Virus record (IMG/VR): IMGVR_UViG_3300046821_000129
Location: 1 to 22,338 of that record
Reading direction: 5' to 3' (one strand)
DNA from: a virus
Length of the DNA: 22,338 nucleotides
A program made the position numbers and the translations under genes. The notes beneath the pieces are model-generated. The model was not told where the DNA came from. It ran no database searches and saw only the letters and a program-made list of their open reading frames with translations. Positions 3,912-20,500 of this stretch are shown here, piece by piece. How positions within the stretch are numbered: the first letter of the stretch is position 1; each line of letters starts with the position of its first letter.

Positions 3912-3920
3912 GAGATAGTA

Positions 3921-4250
3921 ATGAGTATAAATGAAAAGCCAACCACTAAAATAGGTATAAATGAATTTGGAATACTTGAATATCTTAAATATATTCCTAT
4001 TTTAATTGAACAAAATAATGAATTACTTAAGAAGATAGAATATATTGAAAATTCACTAATAAATAAACTAGACTTTTCAAAAAGATGTGATGTTCGAAGT
4101 TTTTTAGAAGTTTCAGAAAGTACTCTTTCTAATATGATGAATGATGGAAGATTAAAGCAAGGTATTCATTATACTAAAACAATTAAGGGGAGAAAGACTA
4201 AAATCATATTTCACGAAGATGCGATTGTAAAATATAAAGGAAATAAATGA
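3921..4250 (+). CDS. Excisionase-like / AlpA-like DNA-binding protein
   Basis: A 109-residue protein. Residues of about 20-55 form a predicted coiled helix (LIEQNNELLKKIEYIENSL). The C-terminal half looks like a small winged helix-turn-helix of the excisionase type: FLEVSESTLSNMMNDGRLKQ, then HYTKTIKGRKTKIIFHEDAI. The pattern of a helix reading a marker, a polar turn, then a strand-rich wing fits proteins that bend DNA at attachment sites. AGGAGATAGTA precedes the ATG. Its stop overlaps the integrase start by 4 bases (ATGA), the usual xis-int pairing, and that context is much of the reason for the call. It could instead be a regulator of the operon. One arm of a 19-bp inverted repeat lies in its last codons. 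Confidence 0.6.
   Translation: MSINEKPTTKIGINEFGILEYLKYIPILIEQNNELLKKIEYIENSLINKLDFSKRCDVRSFLEVSESTLSNMMNDGRLKQGIHYTKTIKGRKTKIIFHEDAIVKYKGNK
4208..4226 (+). repeat. Left arm of a 19-bp inverted repeat flanking int
   Basis: ATTTCACGAAGATGCGATT is the exact reverse complement of 5381-5399. It lies in the last codons of the excisionase-like gene (encoding FHEDAI), 9 bases before the integrase ribosome site. The match ends cleanly at both sides. Confidence 0.85.
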
Positions 4251-5465: not shown

Positions 5466-6887
5466 TTACATTATCTTCATTGTACTAGCAATAACAAACT
5501 GTGGCATAAACCGATTCACAAAATCCCAGCTCATATCATCAGCCACATATATTTCATTTATTTTTTCAGCAGGAGTGGATGAAGTTGTTACGACGTCTGC
5601 TTGTAATTTTTCTTCTACAATATTATTATATACACCATATACACTATACGCAAACTTTCCAACTCCAAGTATAGTATTTAGTACGAGATCATCAGCAAGT
5701 ATTGTTAGTGCTGTTTCCATTGCTGACTCTTCAACTCCTGCTTCAACCATTTGAGCTGTATATGTTTCTATAGCTGCTTGGTCTGCTATAAAAGCATCGT
5801 AAATATTAATACCTCCACCAATAAGTGAAACAATTTGACCACCTACGACCATTACTTTATTACCAATCAAAGCACCAGTAAGAGATATAACCATACCTGC
5901 AATGACTAGAACTGTTCCAATACCGACTCCAAGACCTAATGGAATCAGATAATATTGTTGAGTTAATACTGCTATTGCAATAATAATTATAATAAACACA
6001 ACACCCCAAACACCCTTTTGATACCACTTCTTTTTATGCTCAACTTCTTGTGTAAAAGTCTTTATATTATTTTGGATAAATGCTACAAACTCATCTGCTG
6101 GTAAATTTCTTATCGCTGCATATCCATATAAAGTAGTTGGTTGATTAGGAATGTCTGGAAGTTCTATAAGAGCATCAAATAACTCAATATCATTTCCAAT
6201 AACATAAGTATCTGGCTTATTTCCCATTCCAAGAATTTTATATTTTCTTTTGACAAATAATCTATCATTAATTACTTTTCTTAGTTCTTCATCTGAAAAA
6301 GTATAAGTAAAATATTTTAAATTACTTCTTGCATCACCATTAAAAAAATCAACTTCATTTGGATTAACTTCATTCCATGTGTCAATAGTATCTGTTGAAT
6401 CATTATCAATCATATACATAACTAATCTAGAGTATAAAATATTTGCTATTTCTTCATCACTTGCACCATCAAAATTTGTTTCAATATTGTTTTTAAATAT
6501 TTGATAGTCATATCTATCTTTATCTCCAAAAGCAACTTTTAAAGTAGTTCCATATTTCTCAAATATTTCTAAACATTTATTTGTAAGTTGTATTTGATGT
6601 GTAAGTTTTGATTGTTCAGATGTATAAGATATTGATGTAGTTCTTAGTTTCACTCCAAATCCTGCAAGTCCTCTAGTATCTCCAAGGAATTTTGGTTTTA
6701 ATCCAAATAGTTTTGCAACTTCTTTATTTCTATAACTTCCATTATTCCATAAATATAGCTTCCCTTCTAGATTCCATAAAGCCAAAAGTTTTCTTTTAAA
6801 TCTTCTATCTTTAATTTTTTTAGCTGCTTTAAATCCTTGTCGTGCCGATACTAAATCGCCACGATAAGGTACAAGTATATTTCCCAC
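5466..6887 (-). CDS. Unknown protein with glycine-rich membrane segments
   Basis: A 473-residue protein starting at GTG 6887, with GGA about 7 bases upstream inside the end of the previous gene. Residues 1-290 look soluble and mixed, with a basic start (KAAKKIKDRRFKRKLL). At about 293-365 there are three or so hydrophobic segments, beginning WGVVFIIIIIAIAVL, then GLGVGIGTVLVIAGMVISL and GGQIVSLIGGGINIY, very rich in Gly and Ile. An Ala-rich helical region follows. The pattern recalls phage proteins that enter or cross a membrane, such as ejected virion proteins, but I recognise no family. It is the last gene of the leftward operon, a place where accessory genes also accumulate. Confidence 0.65.
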   Translation of the reverse strand: MGNILVPYRGDLVSARQGFKAAKKIKDRRFKRKLLALWNLEGKLYLWNNGSYRNKEVAKLFGLKPKFLGDTRGLAGFGVKLRTTSISYTSEQSKLTHQIQLTNKCLEIFEKYGTTLKVAFGDKDRYDYQIFKNNIETNFDGASDEEIANILYSRLVMYMIDNDSTDTIDTWNEVNPNEVDFFNGDARSNLKYFTYTFSDEELRKVINDRLFVKRKYKILGMGNKPDTYVIGNDIELFDALIELPDIPNQPTTLYGYAAIRNLPADEFVAFIQNNIKTFTQEVEHKKKWYQKGVWGVVFIIIIIAIAVLTQQYYLIPLGLGVGIGTVLVIAGMVISLTGALIGNKVMVVGGQIVSLIGGGINIYDAFIADQAAIETYTAQMVEAGVEESAMETALTILADDLVLNTILGVGKFAYSVYGVYNNIVEEKLQADVVTTSSTPAEKINEIYVADDMSWDFVNRFMPQFVIASTMKIM

Positions 6888-6891
6888 TTAA

Positions 6892-7695
6892 TTATCCAAT
6901 TTGTGTATAGTTATCTGAGAATATGTCTGAACCAACTATATTTTCACATAATGTTTTATGAGAAGTTAATATTCCTCCAATAGAAGTTAAACCTTCTGCT
7001 AAAGCTGAACTTCCAATTTGCATTAGCTGATTAGCTACTTGTACTTTACTATGGTCTTCGAAACTTTTTGCTTGTTGTTTCATTTGTTCCATTTGATAAC
7101 CAATTAATCCAGCTGTAGTATCAGCTGCATTAGCTGCTGCTAAACTAATATGTTGATATGATATTGCTTGTGTTGTTGTTGGATCTGTATATGATCTAAC
7201 TACACTTGTAACTATTGCACCTGATTTTCTAGCTTCGCTTAATGTTGAAGCAACTGTATTATCAAGTTTAGTTTTAGTTTCTGCAATAGCTAAAAAAATC
7301 TTAGTTTTTATAGAGTTTATCTCTTCTTTAGCTTGATTTGTTTGTTCTTTTGTAAGATTTACTTTTTCTTTTGCAACTAATTCTTCTTGAATTGCAATTT
7401 TATTCTGAGTTTCTGATAAAGTAATCTGTGCATCATTTACGGCTTTTTGTTGGATTAATCTTTTATCCTCGAAAATATATTGTTGTGCTGCTTGTATTCC
7501 AGCTGTAATTTTTGCATTAAACAAACTTGCTGAAAAATTTGAATACTCTTTTAACTTTTGTTCAGCCGATAAATTTGTTTTATTAAGATACATTTTCATA
7601 TCTTTTAAACTAACTTTTTCTTCTTCTTTGATTATATCTATCATGGTTTTTGATAGTGTTTTTATATCTATTTCGTTGATTATATTTAAGCTCAT
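6892..7695 (-). CDS. Unknown alanine-rich helical protein
   Basis: A 267-residue protein with AAGGAG a few bases before its ATG at 7695. It is almost entirely helical, with a long heptad-like stretch (about 85-130, including KEKVNLTKEQTNQAKEEINS) that suggests a coiled coil. Then come Ala- and Gln-rich helices (QHISLAAANAADTTAGLIGY, about 176-195; YQMEQMKQQAKSF). No signal peptide or membrane segment is seen. It stops 4 bases before the next gene. The mix of long helices and its place beside tail-fibre-type genes suggest a structural or internal virion protein; no family is recognised. Confidence 0.65.
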   Translation of the reverse strand: MSLNIINEIDIKTLSKTMIDIIKEEEKVSLKDMKMYLNKTNLSAEQKLKEYSNFSASLFNAKITAGIQAAQQYIFEDKRLIQQKAVNDAQITLSETQNKIAIQEELVAKEKVNLTKEQTNQAKEEINSIKTKIFLAIAETKTKLDNTVASTLSEARKSGAIVTSVVRSYTDPTTTQAISYQHISLAAANAADTTAGLIGYQMEQMKQQAKSFEDHSKVQVANQLMQIGSSALAEGLTSIGGILTSHKTLCENIVGSDIFSDNYTQIG

Positions 7696-7718
7696 TTTTT
7701 TATTCTCCTTTTTTTGTT

Positions 7719-9569
7719 TTAGATCATATTATTAATAGATATTTTAGGTAGTCTAAATCCAATTAGAGTATTGGTACCTGTAGAATTTGTTACAGAATTT
7801 GCTATTGCATATATTTGACCACTAGACCATATTTCAGGAGTAAGATTTGATTCTCCAAATGTATCTATACTCATAAAATATGCACCACCGTATACATTAC
7901 TTACATTTGTAAATAAAATTTTAAAAGACATACCGCCATAAGATACTGTAGCAGAATTAAAACTGTTAGCAGCAGGTCTTGCAATACTCCCATTTCCAAC
8001 CAATCCAGAATATGTAACAGCCGTTGATGAATAAACTGCAGATAATACTAATAAATTACCTATGTATAATTTAAAGTAAGATGATATATTAGAATTAAAA
8101 TAACCAAAATATATTCTATTTGCTGGAAGTGGTCCATTACTTAATAGGCTAGCAAAGTTAATCATTGGAGTAGACTTAACTACTTTCATATTTGTTCCAA
8201 TATTTGCAGAAGCATATGAATATATATCAGAAGATAATGTATAAGTACCAGGAGAAAGATAGGGACTATCTGATACTTTAACTTTCTCAAATGATGATAC
8301 TATACTAATAGATGGAATTCTATATTCATTTGTTCCACTCATATATACTGCATCAGTATATAAACTAGGATTTGCACTATACATTATAGGAGTAATATGA
8401 TAGTTAGTGAGTACTTCCAGTTCTCCATCTAAGTCTAAATATGAAGCTTTTACTACTGCACCATTTATTACTGCACCATTTATTACTGCACCAGTAAAAG
8501 TTTTTCCCACAAATTCATTTGCTGTAACTGTTTCTGCTATAACCCCACCAACTGCATTAAGATTATTTACAAAAGCTTCATTAGTAACTATCTTTCCACC
8601 ATTGATGGAAGTAACATTATTGTTAATAGCATCTTGAACATTTTGTTTTGTTACTATATTTTCACCGCCAGTAATATTTGAAAAAGTAACTCTTCCGTTA
8701 AATAATAAATCATTTCCAACAATTGAAAAAGGGGTATAGCTATTAGTACTATTTGATATTTCAAATACATCAGTATTTATTTTAAATGTAGATATTGCAT
8801 TTGTATCTGTAAATTTAAATCCAACAATTTTACCATCTGAATCAAGAATTACTTTTGAAGTAATCGCAGTATAGTTTCCCTCTTCATCTAGCACTATCTC
8901 ATTTGATTCATTAATTGAAACTCTTGACATATTATTTCCAAGTTCAAGTTTTTCTATCTTTTGAGATTTTACATTTCCATTTACATCTACATATAAGTCT
9001 ATTGCTTCACTATAATTTGATAGGCTTTGATTAATACTTGCTTGCAGTTCTTCTACTTGCGTAGCTCTTGCAGTATCTTTAGTATTAATAGTTTCTTTTA
9101 CATTTAATATTTCAGACTCACTACTCCCAACTCTACTTGATAAATTTCCAACTTGTGAAGCTGTTGCAAATTCTGCTGTTGCTATTGCTATTTTTGCCTC
9201 TGCAATACTTGCAGCTATTTCAGGTGAAGCTTTTTGAGTTAGCAATTCTTCAAGGTAAGTAATAGTTGTATCAATATATGTTTTTTTATATACTCCATCC
9301 TCAAAGTTCTCTATTGTTTGTCTCATTGTAGAGATTAAAGAATCTGCTAAAGTTTGAGTTTTTGCATCTAATATAGCTTTGTCTATTGCATCTTGAATAA
9401 TATCTGGGATAGTAGATAAGTTTATTTGAGATAATAAATATCCCTTTTTTATTACTTCTCTAAATTCACTATCAGATTCAATAATATTATCATTGTTTAC
9501 TTCAATTGTATTTGGTTTATTTGTACTTAATATTTTTGAAATAGTTGAAGATTGAAATACTTTTGACAT
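7719..9569 (-). CDS. Second tail fibre or tip-like protein
   Basis: A 616-residue protein. Residues of about 1-185 are helical and coiled-coil-like. About 195-300 are strand-rich (KIVGFKFTDTNAISTFKI), then a segment like the C-terminal part of tail tip or J-type proteins and fibres: INGGKIVTNEAFVNNLNAVG, IAETVTANEFVGKTF, and a short triangular-helix type repeat GAVINGAVINGAVV. The last 240 residues are strand-rich, Ser/Asn/Tyr-heavy and probably form the tip. It ends RLPKISINNMI. It is likely a trimeric fibre or tip protein. It carries no VR-like sequence, so it is not a second DGR target. A 15-bp tandem repeat lies at 8454-8493. Confidence 0.6.
   Translation of the reverse strand: MSKVFQSSTISKILSTNKPNTIEVNNDNIIESDSEFREVIKKGYLLSQINLSTIPDIIQDAIDKAILDAKTQTLADSLISTMRQTIENFEDGVYKKTYIDTTITYLEELLTQKASPEIAASIAEAKIAIATAEFATASQVGNLSSRVGSSESEILNVKETINTKDTARATQVEELQASINQSLSNYSEAIDLYVDVNGNVKSQKIEKLELGNNMSRVSINESNEIVLDEEGNYTAITSKVILDSDGKIVGFKFTDTNAISTFKINTDVFEISNSTNSYTPFSIVGNDLLFNGRVTFSNITGGENIVTKQNVQDAINNNVTSINGGKIVTNEAFVNNLNAVGGVIAETVTANEFVGKTFTGAVINGAVINGAVVKASYLDLDGELEVLTNYHITPIMYSANPSLYTDAVYMSGTNEYRIPSISIVSSFEKVKVSDSPYLSPGTYTLSSDIYSYASANIGTNMKVVKSTPMINFASLLSNGPLPANRIYFGYFNSNISSYFKLYIGNLLVLSAVYSSTAVTYSGLVGNGSIARPAANSFNSATVSYGGMSFKILFTNVSNVYGGAYFMSIDTFGESNLTPEIWSSGQIYAIANSVTNSTGTNTLIGFRLPKISINNMI
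8454..8493 (-). repeat. 15-bp tandem repeat in the second fibre gene
   Basis: Unit TACTGCACCATTTAT (plus strand) occurs at 8454-8468 and 8469-8483, with a 10-base partial third copy to 8493. It encodes the repeated pentad G-A-V-I-N, typical of stacked strands in fibre shafts. Confidence 0.8.
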
Positions 9570-9577
9570 AACTTTAA

Positions 9578-9823
9578 TTATTCTCCTAAACTTTTATTAC
9601 AATGATTCTTTTCTAATCTTTTTAAAAAGCAACAAAGTTTTTTATCAAACCAAGTTGCTTCACCTTTTTTAATTCTTCTACCAATATGAGAACTAACAGT
9701 CTCATCTTGAGAACCATCCCAAATAACTACATTTAACATTTGATCAAGAACTAAAAGAAATCTCATTAATCTAGTTCTTTTTTTTCTATCATTCTCAAAT
9801 TTTTCTATTAGCTCTATACTCAT
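9578..9823 (-). CDS. Small conserved-looking phage protein
   Basis: An 81-residue protein, highly charged. Its core reads MLNVVIWDGSQDETVSSHIG, then RRIKKGEATWFDKKLCCFLK and NHCNKSLGE. I have a general memory of similar short proteins with a Ser-His-(I/R) and a His-Cys-x-Lys-Ser ending lying near tail genes of podovirus-like phages, but I cannot name the family or its function. It overlaps the preceding gene by 4 bases and stops 8 bases before the second fibre gene, so it is part of the late operon. Confidence 0.6.
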   Translation of the reverse strand: MSIELIEKFENDRKKRTRLMRFLLVLDQMLNVVIWDGSQDETVSSHIGRRIKKGEATWFDKKLCCFLKRLEKNHCNKSLGE

Positions 9824-10218
9824 AATTTACTCGCTGCAATAAACATATCATCAACTGCATCATCAGTTAATACTAAAGTAGTTTTAAAAACTTCAATCAA
9901 AGGACTAACTCTTTCAATAGTTGAGCCGCTCCAGTCAATTTGCCATGCTCTATTACTAGAAATAATAGATTCTACTTCATCTAATAATCCCAACCCTAAT
10001 AAATGTAATTTAGCTTGTCTCATGGTAATAGAATTAGGAACACTCATTTTCTTTTCCAGCTTTACCTTTTCAATAATTGCTAAATCTACTGTAGCTTGAG
10101 GAATTTCTTTTACTCCATCAAACTCAACATATTTATCACCACTCATAACAACTCTTTTTTCCAGCATCTTTGATAACACATCAACTAATGGGATATTAAC
10201 TGCGTTCGTATTTTCCAT
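9820..10218 (-). CDS. Small tail-region protein (XkdW-like pattern)
   Basis: A 132-residue protein. The central part SITMRQAKLHLLGLGLLDEV followed by ESIISSNRAWQIDWSGSTIE and LTDDAVDDMFIAASKL matches a pattern common in small phage proteins encoded next to tail fibres: a Met-Arg-Gln-Ala helix, a Trp-containing strand, and a final helix with an acidic-acidic-Phe/Leu motif. An ideal ribosome site (AAGGAG, 8 bases spacing) precedes ATG 10218. The gene starts inside the last 34 bases of the reverse transcriptase gene, so the DGR sits within, not beside, the late operon. Function is unknown; a role in tail assembly is inferred from position. Confidence 0.6.
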   Translation of the reverse strand: MENTNAVNIPLVDVLSKMLEKRVVMSGDKYVEFDGVKEIPQATVDLAIIEKVKLEKKMSVPNSITMRQAKLHLLGLGLLDEVESIISSNRAWQIDWSGSTIERVSPLIEVFKTTLVLTDDAVDDMFIAASKL

Positions 10219-11204
10219 AACTCAAACTCCTTATTTATAAATTTAACTAGATTCCAACTATCAGCACTTCTTAAATGACCACTCCAGGAAGCTAGAAACA
10301 TTTTTAACTTTTCTAGGTCCTCTTGAAGTAAGTGCTTTTTAATTTTTCTTTTTGCTCTTATAACACTATCTTTTCTGATTAATTTATAATTATCAGTTAT
10401 TCTATACCCTAAGAAATTTAAAGGTTTAGATAAGGCATTTATGTACCATTTGCTAAATCTTAACTTCATATATAATTTACTAAATAATGCTAGTTTTCTT
10501 TGAACTGCAACTAATTCAGATTTACTATTACAAACGATAACAGTATCATCCATATATCTAAAATAGTTTTTCATTCTAAGTTTTGTTTTTACAAATCTAT
10601 CAAAGATATGTCCGTAGATATTTGCAAATAATTGAGATAATAAATTACCTATTGGAATACCTGTTTTTAAATCTCCAGCAAAACCTCTTAATAATGTAAC
10701 AACTCTTTTATCACTAATCTTTCTACATACTTCTTTAAATAAAATATCTATGTTTATTGAATGGAAATATTTAGAAAAATCCATTTTCAAATAATAAACA
10801 GCTCCATTCTTTATGGTTTTTCTAATAGATGCTTGAACTGATTTAACACCTACATGTGTACCTTTATTTTTTCTACACGCATATGATGTTCTATAAAAAC
10901 CTTTTTCAAAGATAGGTTCAACAATATTATTAATTGCGTGTTGAACCACTCTATCTTTGAAAGGTAAAGAGCTAATAACTCTTTCTTTAGGTTCATAAAC
11001 TTTGAAAGTGTGATATTCTCCATGTTTATAAACTTCATTTTTTAATTGTTGTTGAATAAGATATAAATTAGCTTCTAAATTCTCTTTAAACTTCAAGTGA
11101 CTAACTGTGTATCTATTTCCACCTTTAACAGCTTTTTTATATGCTAGTCTTATGTTGTCTATGTCTGAAATTTGTTCTAATAAATGTTTATATCTTTTTC
11201 CCAT
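10185..11204 (-). CDS. DGR reverse transcriptase
   Basis: A 339-residue RNA-directed DNA polymerase of the diversity-generating type. Palm motifs: YYLKMDFSKYFHSI (137-150, first catalytic Asp 142), GIPIGNLLSQLFANIYGH (182-199) with the DGR-typical SQ, NYFRYMDDTVIV (213-224, catalytic pair D219-D220), and LNFLGYRI (262-269). Its short length and lack of a maturase or endonuclease domain also fit DGR enzymes and not group II intron enzymes. It copies TR RNA into cDNA with errors opposite adenine, together with Avd. AAGG lies 8 bases before ATG 11204. It follows TR and overlaps the next late gene by 34 bases, so late transcription should carry it. Confidence 0.97.
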   Translation of the reverse strand: MGKRYKHLLEQISDIDNIRLAYKKAVKGGNRYTVSHLKFKENLEANLYLIQQQLKNEVYKHGEYHTFKVYEPKERVISSLPFKDRVVQHAINNIVEPIFEKGFYRTSYACRKNKGTHVGVKSVQASIRKTIKNGAVYYLKMDFSKYFHSINIDILFKEVCRKISDKRVVTLLRGFAGDLKTGIPIGNLLSQLFANIYGHIFDRFVKTKLRMKNYFRYMDDTVIVCNSKSELVAVQRKLALFSKLYMKLRFSKWYINALSKPLNFLGYRITDNYKLIRKDSVIRAKRKIKKHLLQEDLEKLKMFLASWSGHLRSADSWNLVKFINKEFELWKIRTQLISH

Positions 11205-11288
11205 TTTTACGACCTTTTTGTATGCTGTCTTGTAGTTTCATTTTCATTACTCGTACTTTTACAGACCTCTTAAAGTATTTGCTAACGC

Positions 11289-11501
11289 AGGGCAAACAAG
11301 CTGACCATATTTATAGGTCGCACCACCAAAGCCTTAACTATTAATGAGTGCATTGTTTTTCTAAATATCCTCACACGCAAAACGACACCCAATGTTCCAA
11401 TTCGAGTTCCAAACATAATTGTTCCAATTCGAAGCCCGAGAACCAGCATTCACACCATTGTCACGATTCCCGCCCAATATCACCGCTATCTTGTTTGCCC
11501 T
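11289..11501 (-). ncRNA. DGR template RNA region (TR plus spacer), closed by an inverted repeat
   Basis: This non-coding stretch between avd and the RT gene contains the template repeat. AGGGCAAACAAG at 11289-11300 is the exact reverse complement of CTTGTTTGCCCT at 11490-11501. In the leftward transcript the two 12-base arms can pair, one 3 bases before TR and the other 70 bases after it, enclosing TR and the spacer in one loop. A small extra hairpin is possible in the spacer (GACC at 11303-11306 with GGTC at 11316-11319). DGR RNAs are known to need sequence outside TR for reverse transcription. Ends of the real RNA are not known. Confidence 0.7.
11371..11486 (-). repeat. DGR template repeat (TR)
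   Basis: This 116-bp sequence aligns without gaps to VR at 11891-12006 with 103 identities and 13 differences. Read on the coding (minus) strand, it has nine AAY codons in the frame used by VR, the known design for maximum amino acid change without stop codons. The first 22 bases on the plus strand (11371-11392) are identical to VR and carry just one T, so the 3' end of the coding strand is nearly free of adenine, as expected for the initiation-of-mutagenic-homing segment. The left edge of the match is sharp. The right edge is blurred: 11487 also differs at an adenine, but 11488 differs at a non-adenine. Confidence 0.97.
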
Positions 11502-11513
11502 TTAAGATTAATA

Positions 11514-11858
11514 CTAATCTTTTTTAATCCAACTATTCAGCATTTTTCCAACTTCTGCAAGTTTTACACTTGCTGTTTGATGTTGTTTTTGACTGATTAG
11601 TTTTCTATTTTCACTGGCGAAAAATCTCAAGTAAAATCTTATACTTGCTAAGTTTGCATCAGCTTCATAAAGTCTTGCCTTTTGGTTTGACTTTATAGCT
11701 TTATAAAATAATTCAACTTGCTCAAATACAAGATGAATCAACTTTTCTTTTATTACTCCATGTTTTCTAGGAACATTTTGTAAAACCAAATAAATGTAAT
11801 TAGAGAAGTCTTCATACTTCTCTATAATCGCTAAGTTTTTCGCTGGATTCATATTCAC
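11514..11858 (-). CDS. avd: DGR accessory variability determinant (Avd)
   Basis: A 114-residue, all-helical, basic protein fitting the Avd four-helix bundle. Visible signs are the opening IIEKYEDFSNYIYLVLQNVP, the basic turn RKHGVIKEKL, a middle SIRFYLRFFASENRKLIS, and the typical end KLAEVGKMLNSWIKK. Avd forms a positively charged pentameric barrel that binds RT and template RNA and is needed for mutagenic homing. The gene starts 13 bases after the target stop and ends 12 bases before the TR-flanking inverted repeat, the order found in the Bordetella phage DGR. The start is either GTG 11858 or ATG 11852; neither has a strong ribosome site, so coupling to the fibre gene is likely. Confidence 0.92.
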   Translation of the reverse strand: MNMNPAKNLAIIEKYEDFSNYIYLVLQNVPRKHGVIKEKLIHLVFEQVELFYKAIKSNQKARLYEADANLASIRFYLRFFASENRKLISQKQHQTASVKLAEVGKMLNSWIKKD

Positions 11859-11871
11859 TCACTTTCGTTCG

Positions 11872-14532
11872 TTATACAAGTTCCAGGTGGTCACACGCAA
11901 AACGACACCCAACGTTCCAACCCGAGACCCAAACATAATTGTTCCAACTCGAAGCCCGAGAACCAGCACTCACACCATCGCCACGACCCCCGCCCAACAA
12001 CACCGCAGTTGGTGAGTTATCAGTCGAGTATATTTGACCTCTACTATCTGTATTAGCTTTCCATGCCCAAACTGTATCAGTTGGATAGTTTGCTAAATCA
12101 GAACCCCAAATCCATTGAGTACCTGTTGCTTGTTCAATTCCATATTTAGAAGTAAGATTTGGATAATGTTCAATTTTTCCTGCAACTATTTCATAAGCAT
12201 TTGTTGAAGATGAAACACCCTCTAAAACACCATAAGCAATTGTTGGAAATTCAGAATAAGAAATTAATCTTTTTGCGTTTGCTTTTGCAACTTCACAAGC
12301 TTGAAACCAAGTAAATTTCCCATAGTTTAAAGTATTATTTCCACCATATTCCAAAGGGATTTTAGGCATTAATCTACCAGCAGTAACACTATCACCACCA
12401 GCAATAGTTAATCCAGCTTTTGAAGTACCGTTTGTGATATGCTCACTATTTAATAAATAGATGTCATACCATTTACCACCAATATTAACCATACCTTTTG
12501 GACTAGCAACAGGTCTATATTTTAAATCCCAAAAAGAGTATTGATTAATACCTCTAATTTTTACCATGTCCGCTTCAAGTTTATTACCTGTAACAGTTTC
12601 AGTTTCACCAATTAAACCATAATGAAATCCTCCTATTAATCTATCAGCTGTAATCGCATCATTTGCACTAATATAAAAAGTTGCATCACTTTTCGCATAA
12701 ACATAATAATCCGTTCCTGCTGTTTTAGTTGAACCAACCAAATTAGAAGCTAGTGTTAAAGTGTAATCTGTGATAACCTTAAAGCTTTCAGTTCCAACAG
12801 TAATTTTTAATCCAGCAGGAATTTTTATACTTGATGGTGATACTTTTACAAATAAAGGACCTCTAGTTGGTTTATCAAATTGTTGAGTTGATATTTTTAA
12901 ATCAAGAGAAGTTTTTGTATAAACATCAGCTATATTTGCTTTTGCATCTAAAGCTAGTTGTAACCCAGCAATATTAGAAATAGCTAAAGCATCTAATGTT
13001 GATTTATTTTGTTTAATGAAATTAATAATCTCTTGTAATTCATCTAGGCTTGTATCATTTGAAGTTAAAAGAGTATTTATATGGTCAATATAATCTTTTA
13101 ATACTTTTCCTTGTAATGCAGACAAAGGTTTATCTGGATCAATTGAAACAAGATTATTTTTAATATCTGCTATATTAACTTTTGAAGAAATGCTATCAGC
13201 ACTAGATTGTAAATTATCCCTTATAGTTTCAATATCAGTTTTTGCATTTAAAACAGTTTGTTTATCTAATGAAACAGCTTGTTTATCACTTGTAACTTGT
13301 AATGCTAGATTTTGAACACTACTTTCAAGTTGTTCTACAACTACTCTATTTGCACTTATGCTATCTGCACTTTGACTTGCTTCAAGTGCTTTTTGAATAG
13401 CTGTTTCTTCACTAGCCTTTGCATTGCCTTCACTTGTTTTAGCAGCTAATTTACTTGCATTCGCATCACTTGCACTTTGACTTGCTTCAAGTGCTTTTTG
13501 AATAGCTGTTTCTTCACTAGCTTTTGCATTGCCTTCACTTGTTTTAGCAGCTAATTTACTTGCATTCGCATCACTTGCACTTTGACTTGCTTGTAATGCA
13601 TAAGTTTGTGCAGCAGCTACTGGACTATCCCAACTTACACCGTTATAAAATTTTAGTTCTTTATCTATTTCATTATAATAAAGTGCAGCTATATCCAATG
13701 GATTGCCATCATTATCAGTCAATGGATCACTAGCTTTTTTACCAAGAAATCTATCATCAAAAGTATCAAGCATAATTTCAATAGCATCTTTCATTGAAGT
13801 AACACTATCTTTGTTATCTAATACATTTTGCTTCATAGCTTCAATATCTAGTTTATCTTGTCCAACTATATTTTTATCTTGATTTACAATAGTTGCAATA
13901 TCTTCTAGTATTTGTAATTTATCTGCATGATTAAGATTGTAAGTATCTAGTTTTTCTATATGGTTTTGATTATATAAATCTAGTTTTTCATTATATGTAT
14001 TTATAGCAGTTGGAATAACTATATCAATTAAATTATCTCTTGTAGATATATATTCATCATTTCTAAATAAGATATTATCAAGTTTCCCATTTATGATAAT
14101 TGCTTCATCTCTTTCATCAAGTAAAAAATCTAGTGTTTCAGATTCTAAAGATTCTACAATTCTAACTTTTGCTTGTAATATTACTTCACCTGTTGATAAT
14201 AATATCTCTAAAATTGCATAGAATCCACTCTCACCATATTTATCATCTTCGCTTTGTGGAATAGTAAAGTTTAAAGTATCTACTTTAGATAAAGACACAT
14301 CTACTCTACCTTTTGTAGCATTTCCATCTATATCTTCTGGTTCAATAATAGCTGTTCCAACTTCAAAAACATTTTTAATATCTTCAAAATCTTCATGAGT
14401 ATTTTTAATTTTAATTGTTGCACTTAATCCTGCAAAATCTTCTGGGTCACCAGTTACAGAATTAACCCATTGCCAAGTTCCATAAAACTTACTACCTCTT
14501 AAAATAGTTAATTCATCTGTTCCTAACAACAT
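11872..14532 (-). CDS. Tail fibre with DGR-variable lectin-like tip (DGR target)
   Basis: An 886-residue fibre. Residues 1-130 form a strand-rich head (LTILRGSKFYGTWQW onward) like the N-terminal attachment domains of baseplate or fibre proteins. About 150-540 are a helical coiled-coil shaft with a 35-residue tandem repeat and segments such as DPDKPLSALQGKVLKDYID. About 545-660 are again strand-rich. The C-terminal 220 residues (from SFWDLKYRPVASPKG) resemble the C-type-lectin or formylglycine-enzyme-like fold of DGR targets, with FTWFQACEVAKANAKRLISY, TGTQWIWGSDL and the final NVGCRFACDHLELV. Variable residues lie between 845 and 874. It should bind the host receptor. The ATG shares one base with the preceding lysis gene's stop. 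Confidence 0.92.
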   Translation of the reverse strand: MLLGTDELTILRGSKFYGTWQWVNSVTGDPEDFAGLSATIKIKNTHEDFEDIKNVFEVGTAIIEPEDIDGNATKGRVDVSLSKVDTLNFTIPQSEDDKYGESGFYAILEILLSTGEVILQAKVRIVESLESETLDFLLDERDEAIIINGKLDNILFRNDEYISTRDNLIDIVIPTAINTYNEKLDLYNQNHIEKLDTYNLNHADKLQILEDIATIVNQDKNIVGQDKLDIEAMKQNVLDNKDSVTSMKDAIEIMLDTFDDRFLGKKASDPLTDNDGNPLDIAALYYNEIDKELKFYNGVSWDSPVAAAQTYALQASQSASDANASKLAAKTSEGNAKASEETAIQKALEASQSASDANASKLAAKTSEGNAKASEETAIQKALEASQSADSISANRVVVEQLESSVQNLALQVTSDKQAVSLDKQTVLNAKTDIETIRDNLQSSADSISSKVNIADIKNNLVSIDPDKPLSALQGKVLKDYIDHINTLLTSNDTSLDELQEIINFIKQNKSTLDALAISNIAGLQLALDAKANIADVYTKTSLDLKISTQQFDKPTRGPLFVKVSPSSIKIPAGLKITVGTESFKVITDYTLTLASNLVGSTKTAGTDYYVYAKSDATFYISANDAITADRLIGGFHYGLIGETETVTGNKLEADMVKIRGINQYSFWDLKYRPVASPKGMVNIGGKWYDIYLLNSEHITNGTSKAGLTIAGGDSVTAGRLMPKIPLEYGGNNTLNYGKFTWFQACEVAKANAKRLISYSEFPTIAYGVLEGVSSSTNAYEIVAGKIEHYPNLTSKYGIEQATGTQWIWGSDLANYPTDTVWAWKANTDSRGQIYSTDNSPTAVLLGGGRGDGVSAGSRASSWNNYVWVSGWNVGCRFACDHLELV
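11891..12006 (-). repeat. DGR variable repeat (VR) in the tail fibre gene
   Basis: VR lies at the 3' end of the fibre gene and encodes residues 843-880. Compared with TR it differs at plus-strand positions 11913, 11921, 11922, 11927, 11928, 11948, 11969, 11979, 11981, 11987, 11988, 11998 and 12000. Every one is a coding-strand A in TR; 11 became G and 2 became T. The 92 non-adenine positions show no change. Nine codons are altered: I845L, N849G, D851G, N852D, N855S, N862S, N869V, N871G and I874V (TR to VR). The invariant end encodes GCRFAC, close to the conserved end of DGR lectin-fold targets. I found no clear hairpin just downstream. Confidence 0.97.
13367..13592 (-). repeat. 105-bp tandem repeat in the fibre shaft
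   Basis: Copies at 13367-13471 and 13472-13576 differ at a single base (13417 versus 13522), and a partial third copy (GCACTTTGACTTGCTT) follows at 13577-13592. The unit encodes 35 residues of coiled-coil type (Ser/Ala/Lys-rich, including SASDANASKLAAKTSEGNAK). It keeps the reading frame, so gain or loss of units would only change shaft length. Confidence 0.92.
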
Positions 14533-14999
14533 TATAAAGCTCCATACTTTCTATTCATTTCAAGGTAATGCTCAGATGTACCTTTTCCTTGAACTGTGTT
14601 ATAGTGAAGTTTCCAATATTTGGCTCTTTCTTCAATAGTTGCAGGGATTGGATCACCTTTTAACCAATAGTGAAGTCTTGTAAATAAAAGTGCTAAAAAT
14701 TGGTTATATCTCAAATCATCCCATTCAACCAAAGATATATCAATTTTTAATTCTTTTAAAATTTTTGGTTGTAATCTTTTACTTCTATTTCGAATATCAT
14801 CAAAAGGTAATTTATCAAATTGAGTAATCCCCATACCAGCACCTGCTGTTTTATCTTCAATTTGTCCAAGTCCAGTTTCAGCAATTGCAGTTTCAATTAT
14901 CATTTCTTTTGCAGTTTCATATAATCCATGACCTATGCAATCACAAATTCTTTGAGCATCTTCATCAATTCTTTTAAGATTTATTACACCGTAGTTCAT
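14532..14999 (-). CDS. Endolysin, lysozyme-like muralytic enzyme
   Basis: A 155-residue protein that fits a lysozyme or transglycosylase-type fold. Helices lead into ETAIAETGLGQ (36-46), which supplies a candidate catalytic Glu (E41, or E36). A loop with GAGMGITQFD (53-62) follows, the Gly-x-Gly-x-x-Gln element of lytic transglycosylase-like enzymes, and then a helix around LALLFTRLHYWL. It would cut peptidoglycan at lysis. No signal peptide is seen, so release by the holin is expected. It overlaps the outer spanin gene by 4 bases (ATGA) and completes the lysis cassette. Exact bond specificity is not evident. Confidence 0.75.
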   Translation of the reverse strand: MNYGVINLKRIDEDAQRICDCIGHGLYETAKEMIIETAIAETGLGQIEDKTAGAGMGITQFDKLPFDDIRNRSKRLQPKILKELKIDISLVEWDDLRYNQFLALLFTRLHYWLKGDPIPATIEERAKYWKLHYNTVQGKGTSEHYLEMNRKYGAL

Positions 15000-15259
15000 T
15001 TACTTACTCCTTTACAAAATAAATTATTTCTATCAACTTGTTTTTCATAAAAATTAAAACCCGATTCAATTGAAGTTTTATATGCAACTGCAACATCAAC
15101 ATCATCTTTATGAACTCTAATTTGAGTTGGTTCAAGTCTTTCAATCTTTTGTTGTTCTATACAAACTAACTTATCTAGAAATATAATTTTTGGTTCTTTT
15201 TGTGAACATCCAATAAAGATAAAACTAAAAAGTAACGATAGTAAAATTGCTTTTTTCAT
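14996..15259 (-). CDS. Outer spanin lipoprotein (Rz1-like)
   Basis: An 87-residue protein with a clear lipoprotein signal: MKKAILLSLLFSFIFIGC, lipobox IFIGC, Cys 18 as the lipidated residue, followed by SQKEP. The mature part is about 70 residues. It starts inside the last 35 bases of the gene for the membrane-anchored coiled-coil protein in another frame, the overlapping arrangement of Rz and Rz1. Outer spanins join inner spanins across the periplasm and fuse inner and outer membranes at the end of lysis. This implies a Gram-negative host. The two conserved-looking Cys near the end (CIEQQ, FCKG) are unusual and may form a disulfide. Confidence 0.75.
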   Translation of the reverse strand: MKKAILLSLLFSFIFIGCSQKEPKIIFLDKLVCIEQQKIERLEPTQIRVHKDDVDVAVAYKTSIESGFNFYEKQVDRNNLFCKGVSK

Positions 15260-15578
15260 CTTGTTTTATCTCCCCTCTTTTTATAACTGCTTCTTTTACT
15301 TTTGAAGTTGTTTTAATTACTTCAATCTTTTGCTCTTGAGTAATAGCTTTTTCATTAGATATTTCTCTTTCAATAGCTAAGGTTTTTTCATACCCTTTGA
15401 TAGTTAAGTCATTGATTTCTTTTTGTTCTACTAAACTAGAATTGCTCTCTTTCAAGTCAGTTTTTAAACTTTGATTTTGAAACATAACATAAGCTAAAAA
15501 TAGGATAAAAGCTAAGTAAAAATAGGTTTTAAATTTATTAAAAAATGTTGATAAAAATGAAGATAAAATAGTTATCAT
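15225..15578 (-). CDS. Inner spanin (Rz-like)
   Basis: A 117-residue type II membrane protein. A single N-terminal membrane helix lies at about 19-36 (TYFYLAFILFLAYVMF), followed by a long charged, coiled-coil periplasmic part rich in Glu and Lys (KESNSSLVEQKEINDLTIKG). The order after a holin gene, and the overlap with a lipoprotein gene, are the main reasons for the spanin call, since sequence similarity between Rz proteins is low. It overlaps the holin gene by 4 bases. Confidence 0.72.
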   Translation of the reverse strand: MITILSSFLSTFFNKFKTYFYLAFILFLAYVMFQNQSLKTDLKESNSSLVEQKEINDLTIKGYEKTLAIEREISNEKAITQEQKIEVIKTTSKVKEAVIKRGEIKQDEKSNFTIVTF

Positions 15579-15889
15579 TTTGAATCCTCACAATTTATAT
15601 TTAAGTATTTACAAATAGCTTTAGGAATAACCTGCTCTAACATACTTAATCCCTTTGTACCAAGATGCGAAACTACACCAACAACTCCAACTATTAGAAT
15701 CTCATTTACTCCACTACCCTTACATAAAAAATAGGTTACAATTGCAAGAAAAAAAGATATAACTACTTCACCAATAAGTTCACTTATTCTATTGATATAA
15801 CCTACACTTGCACCTAAAGTACTTAATGCACTAATCCATAGTATTGTTAATATATTTTTTGATAAAAATATTGTTAATGCTTCAATCAT
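15575..15889 (-). CDS. Holin
   Basis: A 104-residue membrane protein with three hydrophobic segments: about 11-29 (NILTILWISALSTLGASVGY), 38-55 (IGEVVISFFLAIVTYFL) and 62-77 (EILIVGVVGVVSHLG). It ends in a polar tail. This topology fits three-pass phage holins, which pierce the inner membrane at a set time and let endolysin reach the wall. Four-base overlaps link it to the head-region gene upstream and the inner spanin downstream. The call rests on topology and its place in the lysis cassette. Confidence 0.75.
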   Translation of the reverse strand: MIEALTIFLSKNILTILWISALSTLGASVGYINRISELIGEVVISFFLAIVTYFLCKGSGVNEILIVGVVGVVSHLGTKGLSMLEQVIPKAICKYLNINCEDSK

Positions 15890-16221
15890 TCATTTAACTC
15901 CTGCTCTTTAAATTTGTTCCAAAGGAAAGTACCTTTTGCATCTTCATAATCTAAAATATATTTCTGTTTTAAATTAATATCATTTGTATATAATTGCGAT
16001 ACATAATAAATAAGTGCTATTACAATATCTTCAATAACTGGGATATTGTCATTTTCATTTTCAAATATATCTACTGTTCTAATAACTTCTCGTGTTTCTG
16101 CTTCAAGTTTTACAATACCTTGTTCAATTACTATCTTCCATTGAGGAAAAGAAGAGGGAAGCTTTGATTGACCATCTTGTGTATTGGTTTTTATAAGTGA
16201 TTCAAAAGTTTTAAAATTCAT
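15886..16221 (-). CDS. Small head-region protein, possibly head completion
   Basis: A 111-residue soluble protein: a short N-terminal helix, strands (WKIVIEQGIVKLEAETREV), and a C-terminal helical part (IEDIVIALIYYVSQLYTN, then KGTFLWNKFKEQ). It lies between the capsid gene and the lysis cassette, where head completion or head-tail joining proteins are common, and its size fits. I do not recognise the family, so the role is inferred from place only. Confidence 0.55.
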   Translation of the reverse strand: MNFKTFESLIKTNTQDGQSKLPSSFPQWKIVIEQGIVKLEAETREVIRTVDIFENENDNIPVIEDIVIALIYYVSQLYTNDINLKQKYILDYEDAKGTFLWNKFKEQELNE

Positions 16222-16248
16222 AATTAACCTTATTTATTAACTTAATAA

Positions 16249-16266
16249 AGCCCTCAAAAGAGGACT
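16249..16266 (-). terminator. Stem-loop after the capsid gene
   Basis: Read leftward, AGTCCTC-TTTT-GAGGGCT forms a 7-pair stem (one G-T pair) with a four-base loop, just after the capsid gene stop. No strong T-run follows, so it is probably a leaky terminator or an mRNA-end stabiliser. It could let capsid mRNA outnumber that of the genes beyond. Confidence 0.5.
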
Positions 16267-16273
16267 CTATAAA

Positions 16274-17419
16274 TTAAGCTTTTAATCCAAATCCAGCTGA
16301 GAATGCAAAAGCATTTCTAATAGCAAGGGTCATATCTGAGTAATATCTAACTAAATCAGCAGTCGTATCTGAAGATGGGTTAGTTTTATATGTATCAGTT
16401 AAAAATGATTTTTGAGCATAAGAGAAGTTACCAATAAGTAAAACATCGTCTAATCCATTAGCTGCATTAAAATCTTGATGATATTGGATTCTTGCCTTTC
16501 CAAATGGAGTGATAATTACTTCAACTTGATAACCAATCTCTTTATCTTGCATTGTTCCTCTTCTTAGGTCTTTGTACATATCTGTAATAGTTTCTAATAA
16601 ATCACCACCACAATATAAGTCAAATGCTCCATTAACTGGTTTTACACCGTAATCAGTCATTTTCCTAATTAACTCATTGATATGTTTTCTATCAATAGTT
16701 GTTTTAGTTCCAGTCATATCTCCTGCACTATCAAAAGTTTTGATATTTCCAAGCCATTTGTTTGACCAATCTTGTAAATCCCTAAAATTTCCACTATCAA
16801 TTTCAGATTGTAACTTCCCAGTATTTGCCAAGTAATGGAATATTCCTGCCATTTGTGAAGCATCAGCAGCATTTGTACCGTCACCACTTCTAAATTTAGG
16901 AGCAGCAATTAAAGACATTTTCCCAGCAATTGATGGATCAGCATCTAATGGAGTATAAGTGTAATTGCTTGTGCCAGTAATTACCGTTCTACCAATACCT
17001 AGAATCGCTTGTTCCATTGTTTTTTTATGTTTTAAAACTAAATCTCTATCCATTAAAGATTGTTCAGAAGCACCATAAGTAACAGTATCTTTTGCAGCTT
17101 GTGAAATGAAATCTTCATGTTTGAAAATCTCTGTTGCATTATCTAATCTTTGAGTAGATGGTTTAGTACCACCAGTGAATCCTGAAACCTCTGCAACTGG
17201 TTTTCTATCAGCTTCACTTACTTTTCTTTGTAACCAACCATGTCTGTTGTTAGTTGCTTTTTGTCCAGTTGAAAGCTTTGAAAGTAAAGGAGTATCTTCT
17301 CTACCTATAAACTCAATGGCTTCAACAACTGACCTTTTGTCATGGGGTCTATTTGTACCTTGTAAACCAGTTTCAACATAACCTGTTGAAGTTTTCCCGC
17401 TTGAACCTGCTCCAATCAT
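16274..17419 (-). CDS. Major capsid protein (SU10/DUF5309-like)
   Basis: A 381-residue protein resembling the SU10-type major capsid family (formerly DUF5309). It has an N-terminal arm rich in Gly, Ser and Thr (GAGSSGKTSTGYVETGLQGT), then EAIEFIGREDTPLLSKLSTG, a basic strand around HGWLQRKVSEADRKPVAEVSG, and strands with DLYCGGDLLETITDMYKDL and VEVIITPFGKARIQYHQDF typical of this HK97-fold group. It ends in a short hydrophobic segment FAFSAGFGLKA. AAAGGATAAAT precedes the ATG. It forms the phage head shell. A stem-loop follows the stop. Confidence 0.82.
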   Translation of the reverse strand: MIGAGSSGKTSTGYVETGLQGTNRPHDKRSVVEAIEFIGREDTPLLSKLSTGQKATNNRHGWLQRKVSEADRKPVAEVSGFTGGTKPSTQRLDNATEIFKHEDFISQAAKDTVTYGASEQSLMDRDLVLKHKKTMEQAILGIGRTVITGTSNYTYTPLDADPSIAGKMSLIAAPKFRSGDGTNAADASQMAGIFHYLANTGKLQSEIDSGNFRDLQDWSNKWLGNIKTFDSAGDMTGTKTTIDRKHINELIRKMTDYGVKPVNGAFDLYCGGDLLETITDMYKDLRRGTMQDKEIGYQVEVIITPFGKARIQYHQDFNAANGLDDVLLIGNFSYAQKSFLTDTYKTNPSSDTTADLVRYYSDMTLAIRNAFAFSAGFGLKA

Positions 17420-17520
17420 ATTTATCCTTTATATTTTTGATTAATTTTATTGGTTAGGTTGTGGATAAATAAGGGGGATTTTTGGAATGAGTGGGTTTTA
17501 TTGGGAGTGTAAAGAGGAAA
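17420..17520 (-). other. 101-bp spacer before the capsid gene
   Basis: The only sizeable gap in the right-hand part of the late operon, apart from the DGR RNA. It has the capsid ribosome site (AAAGGA) at its left end and is A/T-rich with runs of C on the transcribed strand. I see no convincing promoter or terminator, though a capsid-specific promoter here would be reasonable. Confidence 0.4.
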
Positions 17521-20500
17521 TTAATCCTCTTTATCTCTCATAGCTTTTTTAGCTTGATTAGATTTATCGTAAGTCATTGCATTTATTCCTAAGAATTTTA
17601 ACAACTCTTGTGTTGTTGTTCTAGGTTTTGTAACTGCATTTGTGCTTCTTTTTTTAGCTTCCATAAGTTGTGACTCTGCCAAGTTATAAGCATTATCAAT
17701 AACATCTGGTGTAATTTGTTGAACTCCATATTTAGCTAAATGATAAGCTTTTAATGCACCCTCTTTGTTAGTGATTTTTCCACCAAAATAAGAGTCTTGA
17801 TTTCTTGGAATATCTTTAATTGGACTCCATGCACCACCACTTGTTAGATTTTTTACAAAGTCCAATGGATTTAAAACATCATTGTGTGGAATCCATCTAT
17901 CAACTTTTATTGTTGTAACTTCATTTCCATCTTTATAAATTGGTATTCTTTTCATAGAAAAGTTTTGTTGTGGTATATCTTTTTCATTGAATGGATCTAT
18001 TCCAAACATTTGATTCATTCCATATAATGCACCATAAATTGCAACAATTCTTTCTGGTCGTTCTTTCATTTGCTTCAAAATAATTGGAGTTGCATAGTAA
18101 GTCCAAGATATAAAAGGTGTTAGCATACTATTTCTTCCAAATCTTGCCCATTGACTCATAGGTTTTGTATAGTCTGGGATTGTGCTATTAACTTGTTTTA
18201 TCGCATCATCAAAGCTTGTACCTGCTTCTGTTAAAGATTTAAGCATACTAAATCTCATAATATTATCTTCACCTTGATAAGCATTACTTGCAATTTCATC
18301 AGCTTTTTGTAGTGTGTTCTTAAATCTTCCACTATTAGTTGGAGTAACATTAGGATTTACATATTTGTTTAAAATATCGTTTAAATTACTTCTTCCAAAT
18401 AATCCTGCTTGTTGTGCTTGATTCCAAAGCTTTAAATCTTCATCTTGTGCTAAAGCTCTCAAGGTTGCATTTTCTTCTTGTGATAATCCAATAATTTGTT
18501 TTGCTGTTAGTTCTCTAAACTGATTTACTTTTTGTGAAGCTAAAGCACCTTTTGTTGCATTAACTACTGCTTTATTTGGGTTAATACCTGCTCCAAATTG
18601 CATAGTTACATTTGATAATAAATTATTCAAGTGAGCAATAGGGTTGTAAACTGTATGAGATTTCTTCCAAAATGTACTTAATGCCTTAAATGCTTCCATT
18701 CCTTTTGAGCTTAACAAACTCCCCTCTGTACCAAACAAAGCATTATTGAATTCTTTTATATCACTTGCAACATCAGCAGGAACATACTTACCATTTAATG
18801 CTCCATATCTTTTACCTGCTAAATGTACATATCCATCTATCGGATCATCTGAAACATAGTTTGTATTATCAACTATCTTTTTAAGCATAGTTGCATGATC
18901 TATCATTTCCCTAGTTCGCATTAAAGTTTCTGGCAAACTAAATGCAATATCTTTTACTTCTCCCCATCTTGTTCTTTGTTCTTCCGTCCAATCTTGTCTA
19001 AACTTATATTGTCCGTTTTGCATCTTTGTGGCTTCAATCTTACCTGCAAAGAAATCTCCAATTTCTCCATTTTTTAAAAGCTTTTCATATTCTGTTTTAG
19101 TTCCATTCCATTCATTACCTCTTGCATGAACTCCTTGAATAGTTTTACCTTTTGTAAATAGTGAGTTAAACTTTTGACTAAAATCTTTTTCATATCTTCT
19201 GTGTAAATATCTATCTTTGAATTTATCAAACTGTGCTTCTTCTAATACACCTAAATCAACAAGTTCTTTTCCCATCTTATTAATTTCACCAGTATAATTG
19301 TCTGCAAGTTGTTTAATGTTTGGATCAAGTTGTATAGTTTTATTGCCACTCATATAATCATACATTTTAGTTCTTGTCGTATCATCAAGAAGTTTTAGTT
19401 GTTCATGCAGCAAAGCAAAGTTTTCATACTGTTTATTCTTGTTTGAAATCATTGCTTCTCTTAGTGCCATATAATCAGTTTTTTGATAAATTTTATGACC
19501 AAAAATTTTATCTGCTGTTTCTGTATCTGCAAGATTTTTAATTATGCTTGTTGCTTTTGCAGCAATATTTGTATTCTTTGCAATTAAAGCACCTTTTGTT
19601 CCAACTGCTCCTAAACCTACACCAATTAGAATATCTGTAATATTTGTTTTTCCATCACCATTTAAGTCGTTGTTCGCTCCCGTTATTCCACCGACCATTC
19701 CGCCGCTTATTGTTGGACTAGCAAACAATACATTATTTTTTTCAGCTTCTCTTTTTATAACTTCAATTCTTGACTCTGGCATTTTTGGATCGTATGTTTT
19801 ATATTTTATTCCATTTTTTTCAAGAATTTCTTTTGTTTCTTTACTTGCATTTTTAGGAATAATTGCAAGTTTAAACTTGTTTAATTCCATCTTTCCTAGA
19901 AATTTGCTCTCAAAATATTCTGTTGGCATTTCTTTTAACTTATTTAGAAAATTATCTATTTCTGCAAAATCTTCTGGTTTCACCTTTACAGAATAATCGC
20001 TCAATGCTCTTTTCCCTCTTTTTGCATAATCTGATATAAACTCTGATGCAATCTCTCTTGCGGTAAAGCTGTTACCAATTCCATCATCAGCAATCTTTGA
20101 AATAATATCGCCCAACTCATTATCTATTGTTGATTTTATTGATTCAAATTCTTTTGATGTAACAAGTCTTTCTTTGGCTTTTTTAATTTGCTCTATTGTT
20201 TTAAACTCTGGTGTAACTGTTGCTCTGATGCTTCCTGCACCATAGTTAAAGTTTTCCCCACCTCTTAGGTTGGAAGTTAAATACTTCATTACATTTTGCT
20301 CTGTGTATGGCTGTTGCTTCCCGTTGTTGTTGAAAGAAGATTTGTAAGAATAAGACTCTTGAATATTCTTCGCATAGTTGTCAAATTCATCTTGATGTTT
20401 TGACATATGCTTATTAACCAATTCCCTTGCTTTATATAGGTCTGGTTTATTTTGACTTCTACCAATTTGGTCTAAGTTCATTGCTCTATCTTTTGCCAAA

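Follow-up and report, generated by a model that had tools for sequence, protein, structure and literature searches.

The window, i.e. the 22,338-base virus record IMGVR_UViG_3300046821_000129 analysed over its full length, carries on its minus strand a cassette that, with high confidence, is a diversity-generating retroelement (DGR) of the BPP-1/Mtd type, of the textbook kind with all parts present and most likely belonging to a phage of Campylobacterota. The features concerned, among them the reverse transcriptase (RT), the template repeat (TR) and the variable repeat (VR), are as follows.

10185..11204, minus: DGR RT of 339 residues with IGNLLSQ and YMDD motifs (PF00078, E 2.5e-21; PHROG 1423, E 1.3e-105)
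11224..11350, minus: DGR RNA between TR and RT (Rfam Phage_DGR RF03022, 85.1 bits against a gathering threshold of 50, whole model 1-127)
11371..11486, minus: TR with 24 adenines (repeat search and base-by-base TR-VR comparison)
11514..11858, minus: Avd accessory protein of 114 residues (PF22296, E 1.6e-35; NF033474, 107 bits against a cut-off of 80; PDB 4dwl Bbp7, E 9.8e-26)
11857..11872, minus: candidate target hairpin behind the VR, its first base being the last base of the target stop codon
11872..14532, minus: target gene for an 886-residue tail fibre/receptor-binding protein with an Mtd-like C-terminus (PF21916 mtd_2nd, E 1.8e-13; phage fibre repeats; PHROG 11262 tail protein, E 7.2e-77)
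11878..12852, minus: region homologous to BPP-1 Mtd residues 67-380, with the VR aligned on that of Mtd (PDB 1yu4, E 7.6e-42)
11891..12006, minus: VR with 13 changes, all on template adenines (TR-VR comparison)

Read along the minus strand, the target gene with its VR is followed by avd, TR and RT, i.e. the order found in BPP-1. The RT shares 45.6% identity with the BPP-1 RT, whose solved structure it matches with an E value of 1.8e-83 (PDB 8ub7 chain A), and contains both YMDD and the (I/V/L)GxxxSQ motif, each of which is also conserved in the RT alignment; the SQ motif is taken here as the parts of PMC3521204 on DGR RTs define it. The last 356 residues of the target match Mtd at the E value listed above, and by this homology the protein is predicted to have a C-type-lectin fold with a C-terminal VR. 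Counted back from the shared C-terminal CDHL, N849, D851, N855, N862 and N864 correspond to Mtd 344, 346, 350, 357 and 359, and N865, N869, N871, N873 and I874 to Mtd 360, 364, 366, 368 and 369. These ten positions belong to the variable residues of Mtd, in line with the codons at which BPP-1, BIP-1 and BMP-1 are changed. The nearest RTs in genome contigs (74, 72, 70 and 58% identity) lie in metagenome-assembled genomes of Helicobacteraceae, Sulfurimonas, Arcobacteraceae and Sulfuricurvum, and therefore the host of the phage is most likely a member of the Campylobacterota.

Adenine-restricted differences between TR and VR

TR and VR align over 116 bases without gaps, their homology ending at both edges of this stretch, and an independent repeat search recovers the same pair at 89% identity. 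Thirteen of the 24 template adenines are changed and none of the 92 other bases, a distribution that would arise by chance with P 4.5e-11. The original prediction, which placed all 13 differences on template adenines, was thus exact, and the past mutagenic homing that it deduced is supported by the complete BPP-1-type cassette beside the pair. The differences could also be put down to gene conversion, or to ordinary divergence after a segment was duplicated, and the existence of two copies is what speaks for this, with nothing further; given the intact non-adenine bases, the complete RT/Avd/RNA cassette adjoining the pair, and the same adenine restriction in the 109 other pairs and the letter-blind scan described below, we consider this explanation to have practically no chance of being correct.

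Nine codons are changed (845, 849, 851, 852, 855, 862, 869, 871 and 874), six of them AAY codons, and all nine changes are non-synonymous. The original prediction had stressed that every change alters a residue, which holds for these nine codons but is mostly a consequence of template design, because 23 of the 24 template adenines occupy codon positions 1 or 2; in fact, 82% of simulated sets of 13 random adenine changes were entirely non-synonymous. The adenine-bearing codons left as in the TR are N864, N865, Y866 and N873, to which D881 has to be added as a fifth that had gone unlisted. From TR to VR, there are 11 A>G, two A>T and no A>C substitutions, a composition that is improbable if G, T and C were used equally (P 2e-4).

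The same restriction in related retroelements

From 198 records, 151 raw TR-VR pairs were collected, which were reduced to 110 distinct pairs, including that of the window, after dropping duplicates. Pairs were found with a score tolerating adenine changes and kept if they had at least four adenine changes, a length of at least 60 bases, no gaps, and at most one non-adenine change per four adenine changes. They were grouped by RT identity to the window into set I (>=58%, 26 other pairs), set II (41-51%, 50 pairs) and set III (<=40%, 33 pairs). A held-out set of 69 further pairs (from 99 raw ones) came from later scans, giving 179 pairs in total. Many statistical tests were made on this material, for which only the six predictions R1-R6 were fixed beforehand.

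The 109 other pairs, chosen for few non-adenine changes, show 26 mismatches at 9,045 non-adenine bases. When repeats with at least four mismatches were detected without regard to the letter, at least 75% of the mismatches fell on one template letter in 122 of 150 loci (which include some contigs more than once), and that letter was A in 121. The other 28 loci, partly inspected, include several long unrelated repeats, as well as BIP-1 and BMP-1, in which the repeat includes mismatches of the initiation of mutagenic homing (IMH) sequence. Many non-adenine differences among related copies, named at the outset as the result that would point to ordinary divergence, were therefore not seen in the letter-blind scan.

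One observation stands apart, i.e. that Bordetella phage vB_BbrP_003 from China and BPP-1 (L198 and L201, 2667-2800) have identical VR changes from an identical TR, which is odd for a hypervariable site.

Substitution spectrum and constraint on single residues

The 1,457 changes in the 109 other pairs comprise 818 A>G, 409 A>T and 230 A>C, and those in the held-out pairs 648, 285 and 239, respectively. Compared with the 26 other pairs of the same RT clade, in which the A>G share is 0.51, the 11 of 13 seen in the window is mildly high (P 0.013), and a share as high occurs in six of the 98 other pairs with at least eight changes. The transition bias suggested for this phage is therefore real, but it is a general and already published property of DGRs, and we rejected the idea that it is peculiar to this phage. 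According to the parts of the DiGReF study on substitutions, G is the commonest and C the rarest product (PMC3521204), and for BPP-1 cDNA made in Escherichia coli, the error profile given in PMC12875486 has 59.3% of errors as cDNA C, i.e. A>G. Editing of the TR transcript by an adenosine deaminase would produce the 11 A>G changes of the window, but not its two A>T changes nor the A>T and A>C changes of the other pairs; with a DGR RT at hand, this explanation, already refuted, is vanishingly improbable.

At fourfold-degenerate sites, where the residue is unaltered, the G:T:C ratio is 48:12:1. Therefore the bias does not reflect selection only, and it is mutational at least in part. These sites differ between sets, with 13 T and 12 G in set II (a per-record tally in which records with two VRs are counted twice), and in the 110 pairs taken together, VRs differ in their proportions of A>G, A>T and A>C by more than context explains (statistic 294.5, 209.9 expected). 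Extreme spectra are seen in one VR of L146, with 12 T, 4 C and no G, and in L161, with 9 G only. The TRs of L188, L165, L146 and L149 contain many ACA, ACT, CGA and GGA codons, giving many third-position adenines.

The unchanged codons of the window had been read as residues kept by selection. This does not hold for N864, N865 and N873, whose aligned codons are changed in 20/26, 17/26 and 20/25 of the set I relatives, respectively. Y866, on the other hand, is changed in 2/22, against 26/82 for all TAY codons of the 110 pairs, and looks constrained, a low error rate at that site being the alternative.

Sequence context: AAC and AAT codons

Since NNC and NNT codons are synonymous, a position-matched comparison of AAC with AAT is free of protein selection. 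At their first adenine, the two codons behave in much the same way. At the second adenine, A>C is rarer in AAC than in AAT in set I (2/97 vs 13/124), set III (3/118 vs 33/202) and, unstratified, the held-out set (3/100 vs 96/477), while set II leans the opposite way without reaching significance (38/342 vs 6/90). Stratification by alignment column leaves 1/92 vs 12/125 in set I (P 0.010) and 2/105 vs 32/183 in set III (P 0.0003), among 18 such stratified tests made in sets I-III. For the BPP-1 RT in E. coli, the profile in PMC12875486 gives A>C as 26.8% before C and 2.5% before T. Carrying this context rule over to the relatives was tried and fails in most of them.

Neighbouring adenines are not rewritten independently

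Across the 110 pairs, the products of AAY codons are not independent (chi-square 160, 9 d.f.). Most conspicuous is the loss of TGY, i.e. first A>T with second A>G, giving Cys, which was seen three times against 62.4 expected (0, 1 and 2 in sets I, II and III, respectively), and three times against 31.4 expected in the held-out pairs. The observed/expected ratio stays between 0.013 and 0.111 in a bootstrap over 81 TR clusters. Heterogeneity between VRs, considered as the sole source of this effect, is real, yet the effect survives permutation within each VR, by which 53.6 (110 pairs) and 20.8 (held-out) TGY codons are expected.

Two further observations bear on the cause. Cys arises frequently from TAY codons (15 of 26 changed codons, and 13 of 35 in the held-out set), and therefore the missing TGY is not explained by a general selection against Cys; from changed AGY codons it arises in 2/136 (1/59, and 1/77 held-out). 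Before a template G, at adenines without a 5' adenine, A>T makes up 5/298 changes, with 61 G and one T at synonymous sites. A>T is thus almost absent after a cDNA C, whether this C is correct (opposite G) or erroneous (opposite A). At fourfold third positions before an adenine, T and G stand at 14:3 where that adenine is unchanged and at 3:36 where it has been rewritten (P 6e-8), or at 12:3 vs 3:23 on distinct contexts (P 2e-5); the effect becomes thin when each TR cluster contributes a single site (14 clusters, median P 0.03). Among the spectra tried, those of first adenines after second A>T or A>C are best fitted by the spectra before template T or template C, respectively. Together, these statistics across relatives suggest that the terminal base of the cDNA influences which product arises at an adenine. 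We found no report of such a dependence between neighbouring adenines in the literature searched.

As a side observation, the codon pair (CTA or GTA)-AAT has become NTG-TAT in about 12 related VRs of set III (L083, L102, L110, L114 and others), which may be recurrent or inherited.

Both the A>G excess and the missing TGY could instead stem from protein selection favouring Gly, Ser and Tyr and disfavouring Cys, rather than from the enzyme. VRs are, after all, selected sequences, Y866 is nearly invariant, and the question was left open in the passages of the DiGReF paper on this point (PMC3521204). However, this would not account for A>G at 48 of 61 fourfold sites and at 61 of 62 synonymous sites before a template G, nor for Cys being freely reached from TAY yet hardly ever from AGY, and the neighbour effect is also seen, if thinly, at synonymous third positions. 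We therefore judge protein selection an improbable source of both patterns.

The dependence on the cDNA end nevertheless has to be held against several results that do not fit it. After second A>G, the loss of A>T is all that the first adenine shares with an adenine before template G; of the first-adenine changes that follow a mispaired cDNA C, 41/206 are still to C, and the rest of the AA pairs gives a better-fitting spectrum than template G (log-likelihood -234 vs -240). The prediction that Cys would be the commonest TAY product (R2) did not hold among the held-out pairs, where Ser outnumbered it (17 vs 13). Moreover, the AAC context is opposite to the BPP-1 data from E. coli in three of four sets as far as that profile covers it (PMC12875486), and therefore the error rules differ between DGR lineages or settings.

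If the neighbour effect holds, estimates of VR repertoire that multiply independent adenines are too large. Fourfold sites and AAC/AAT codon pairs separate enzyme from selection in natural sequence, which makes the share of VR diversity set by the enzyme directly testable.

A hairpin with a tandem A.G/G.A step behind the VR

A hairpin behind the VR of BPP-1 is needed for homing by mutagenesis, with a consensus of a 7-10 bp GC-rich stem and a GRNA loop in the passages of PMC3240598 that describe it. Among the 27 sites of the RT clade of the window (set I and the window itself), no perfect stem of at least 6 bp was found behind the VR, and the search therefore turned to mismatched stems. In the window, the candidate reads ACGAAC-GAAA-GTGAGT, i.e., from the loop outward, two Watson-Crick pairs, A.G, G.A and two further Watson-Crick pairs; the GA-hairpin 16-mer on the sense strand is ACGAACGAAAGTGAGT.

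Hairpins were counted without selection for pairing, the only anchor being a GRAA tetranucleotide at +18 to +32 behind the VR. Such a tetranucleotide is present at 26 of the 27 sites, including the window; the 27th, L065, has a truncated VR call. Pairs 1 and 2 are Watson-Crick at all 26 sites (pair 1, CG 19 and TA 7; pair 2, GC 18 and AT 8), pair 3 is A.G at all 26, pair 4 is G.A at 24 and A.A at two, and pairs 5 and 6 are Watson-Crick at 23 and 24, respectively. In set II, an anchor defined by the loop only is not specific enough and frequently falls at other places. When the loop was left free and any two mismatches were admitted, the AG/GA step was found in 22/24 hits in set I and 17/22 in set II, against 0.0 and 0.06 in shuffled flanks, and the same free-mismatch search found no AG/GA hairpin in the TR flanks. 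The sequence behind the VR is thus a GNNA-loop hairpin whose short stem is interrupted by an almost invariant tandem A.G/G.A step, and in the literature searched we found no mismatched target hairpin of this kind.

Across the 22 distinct 16-mers, the sole invariant positions are the two GA steps and the two end bases of the loop. The four flanking pairs show 30 cells with both partners changed and none with a single partner changed, in rows selected for pairing and hence 100% paired by construction. Set II also has perfect stems at 12 of 50 sites. Set III has a single AG/GA hairpin in 33 (with a TCCT loop) and four perfect stems, and no AG/GA hairpin was found at the 69 held-out sites. These lineages therefore mark their targets in another way. 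Mapped on an RT tree built from 71 records, the GA type (42 rows if a G.T outer pair is accepted) requires 12 changes, of which well-supported branches demand no fewer than eight, and has therefore been gained or lost repeatedly.

As a DGR finder on its own, the 16-base motif was rejected: it matched 63 viral stretches, nine of which carry DGR parts and the other 54 none, and three of the nine (L374, L388 and L409) were absent from the earlier sets; a control motif with the mismatch reversed gave DGR parts in 0/15. The second VRs of L018 and L006 have their own copy of the hairpin away from the cassette, which in L006 is the A.A form inside a coding frame. Both records are examples of one DGR with two target genes, the second lying several kb away with its own VR and hairpin (L018:12665-12775; L006:568-676).

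By analogy of position with BPP-1, we infer that the GA hairpin is a homing signal. Standard folding does not favour the hairpin. Under ViennaRNA DNA parameters, the hairpin of the window is at +1.2 kcal/mol on the sense and +2.0 on the antisense strand, against -11.4 for that of BPP-1, and a free fold does not pick it (z 0.11). The sense form is favoured over its complement in 22 of 22 cases, by only about 0.8 kcal/mol and with absolute values near zero. DNA GAAA mini-hairpins and sheared G.A steps are known for their stability.

Alternatively, the hairpin could act in the mRNA, e.g. by coupling the translation of avd to that of the target, or as a duplex protein-binding site. In the window, it is flanked by the stop of the target and the start of avd, and its RNA form is more favourable than the DNA form (-0.6 to -4.2 kcal/mol sense, in three examples). 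On the other hand, it is placed where BPP-1 has a hairpin required for homing, as the relevant passages of PMC3240598 report, it also follows the remote second VRs of L018 and, as the A.A variant in a coding frame, L006, and it is absent behind the TR. In addition, L043, which holds the second VR of the L018 contig, has no Avd match at E 1e-4. A role in mRNA or as a duplex binding site is unlikely on this balance.

A possible course of homing

Taken together, homing probably proceeds as follows. The TR transcript, along with the structured RNA behind it, would be copied into cDNA by an RT-Avd complex, with errors arising opposite adenines, and the last cDNA base, right or wrong, may steer what the RT writes at the next adenine. 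By replacing the VR of the tail-fibre gene, this cDNA would allow the phage to sample new receptor-binding surfaces. The DGR of this very phage is presumably active.

The hairpin would work as single-stranded sense DNA, as its complement would carry a tandem T.C in place of the G.A step. Since the sense strand alone would carry the G.A form, the structure recognized in homing may be a hairpin on one strand and not a cruciform, a choice left open by Guo et al. (2011) in the passages concerned (PMC3240598) and for which natural GA stems point to the sense strand. It is tempting to speculate that the cassette reads the hairpin on the single-stranded lagging-strand template during replication. The sense-strand hairpin on an exposed template would fit the published preference for homing targets co-directional with replication. 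The gap model was put to primase tests by the authors of that work, with negative results that they themselves do not regard as decisive. One-strand action is put forward here as a hypothesis. That homing in this clade, as in many further Mtd-type DGRs, is signalled by a one-strand hairpin with a tandem, probably sheared, G.A core and not by a cruciform, and that the RT also has a one-base memory, is a joint proposal that we advance tentatively, rating it at somewhat less than an even chance. If true, one-strand reading would explain the co-directional preference, and the one-base memory would make the reachable VR repertoire smaller and more structured than 4^n.

Other features of the window

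Upstream of the Mtd-like domain, the target fibre gene contains two direct copies of 105 bases (13366-13575, minus strand), 99% identical and in frame, which encode a 35-residue Ala/Ser-rich repeat. The window consists of two divergent halves, i.e. 104-5290 on the plus strand, with genes for a Bet recombinase, a dUTPase-like and a tyrosine-recombinase-like protein, and 5466-22188 on the minus strand, with structural genes including one for an SU10-like capsid protein.

Comparison with known systems

With the mtd-avd-TR-brt cassette of BPP-1, the window shares the gene order, the RT, Avd (Bbp7), an Mtd-like target with a C-terminal VR, and adenine-only change, as well as a GNNA-loop hairpin at about the same distance behind the VR. 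The target is longer, with 886 residues against 381 in BPP-1, and the TR of the window is rich in AAT, whereas the asparagine codons of BPP-1 are all AAC in the stretch compared. BPP-1 has (GC)14 at the end of its VR, while the window has no GC-only stretch of 14 bp, the last shared bases being GGGTGTCGTTTTGCGTGTGA.

The hairpin of BPP-1, GCGGGGCC-GAAA-GGCCCCGC, has a perfect 8-bp GC stem, in contrast to the six positions with a central A.G/G.A step in the window. Likewise, the phage DGR hairpin of Guo et al., as far as their passages on it describe it (PMC3240598), resembles the candidate in position and in a four-base loop fitting GRNA, but has a GC-rich stem of 7-10 bp for which those passages describe no tandem mismatch, whereas here the A.G/G.A step is enclosed by two Watson-Crick pairs on either side.

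Finally, in the portion of the E. coli profile of the BPP-1 RT that can be compared (PMC12875486), the rise of A>C before C is reversed in three of the four sets of relatives, set II agreeing in direction, while A>G is the commonest change overall in both, and A>C is nearly absent before G, as in the relatives analysed here (2/298).

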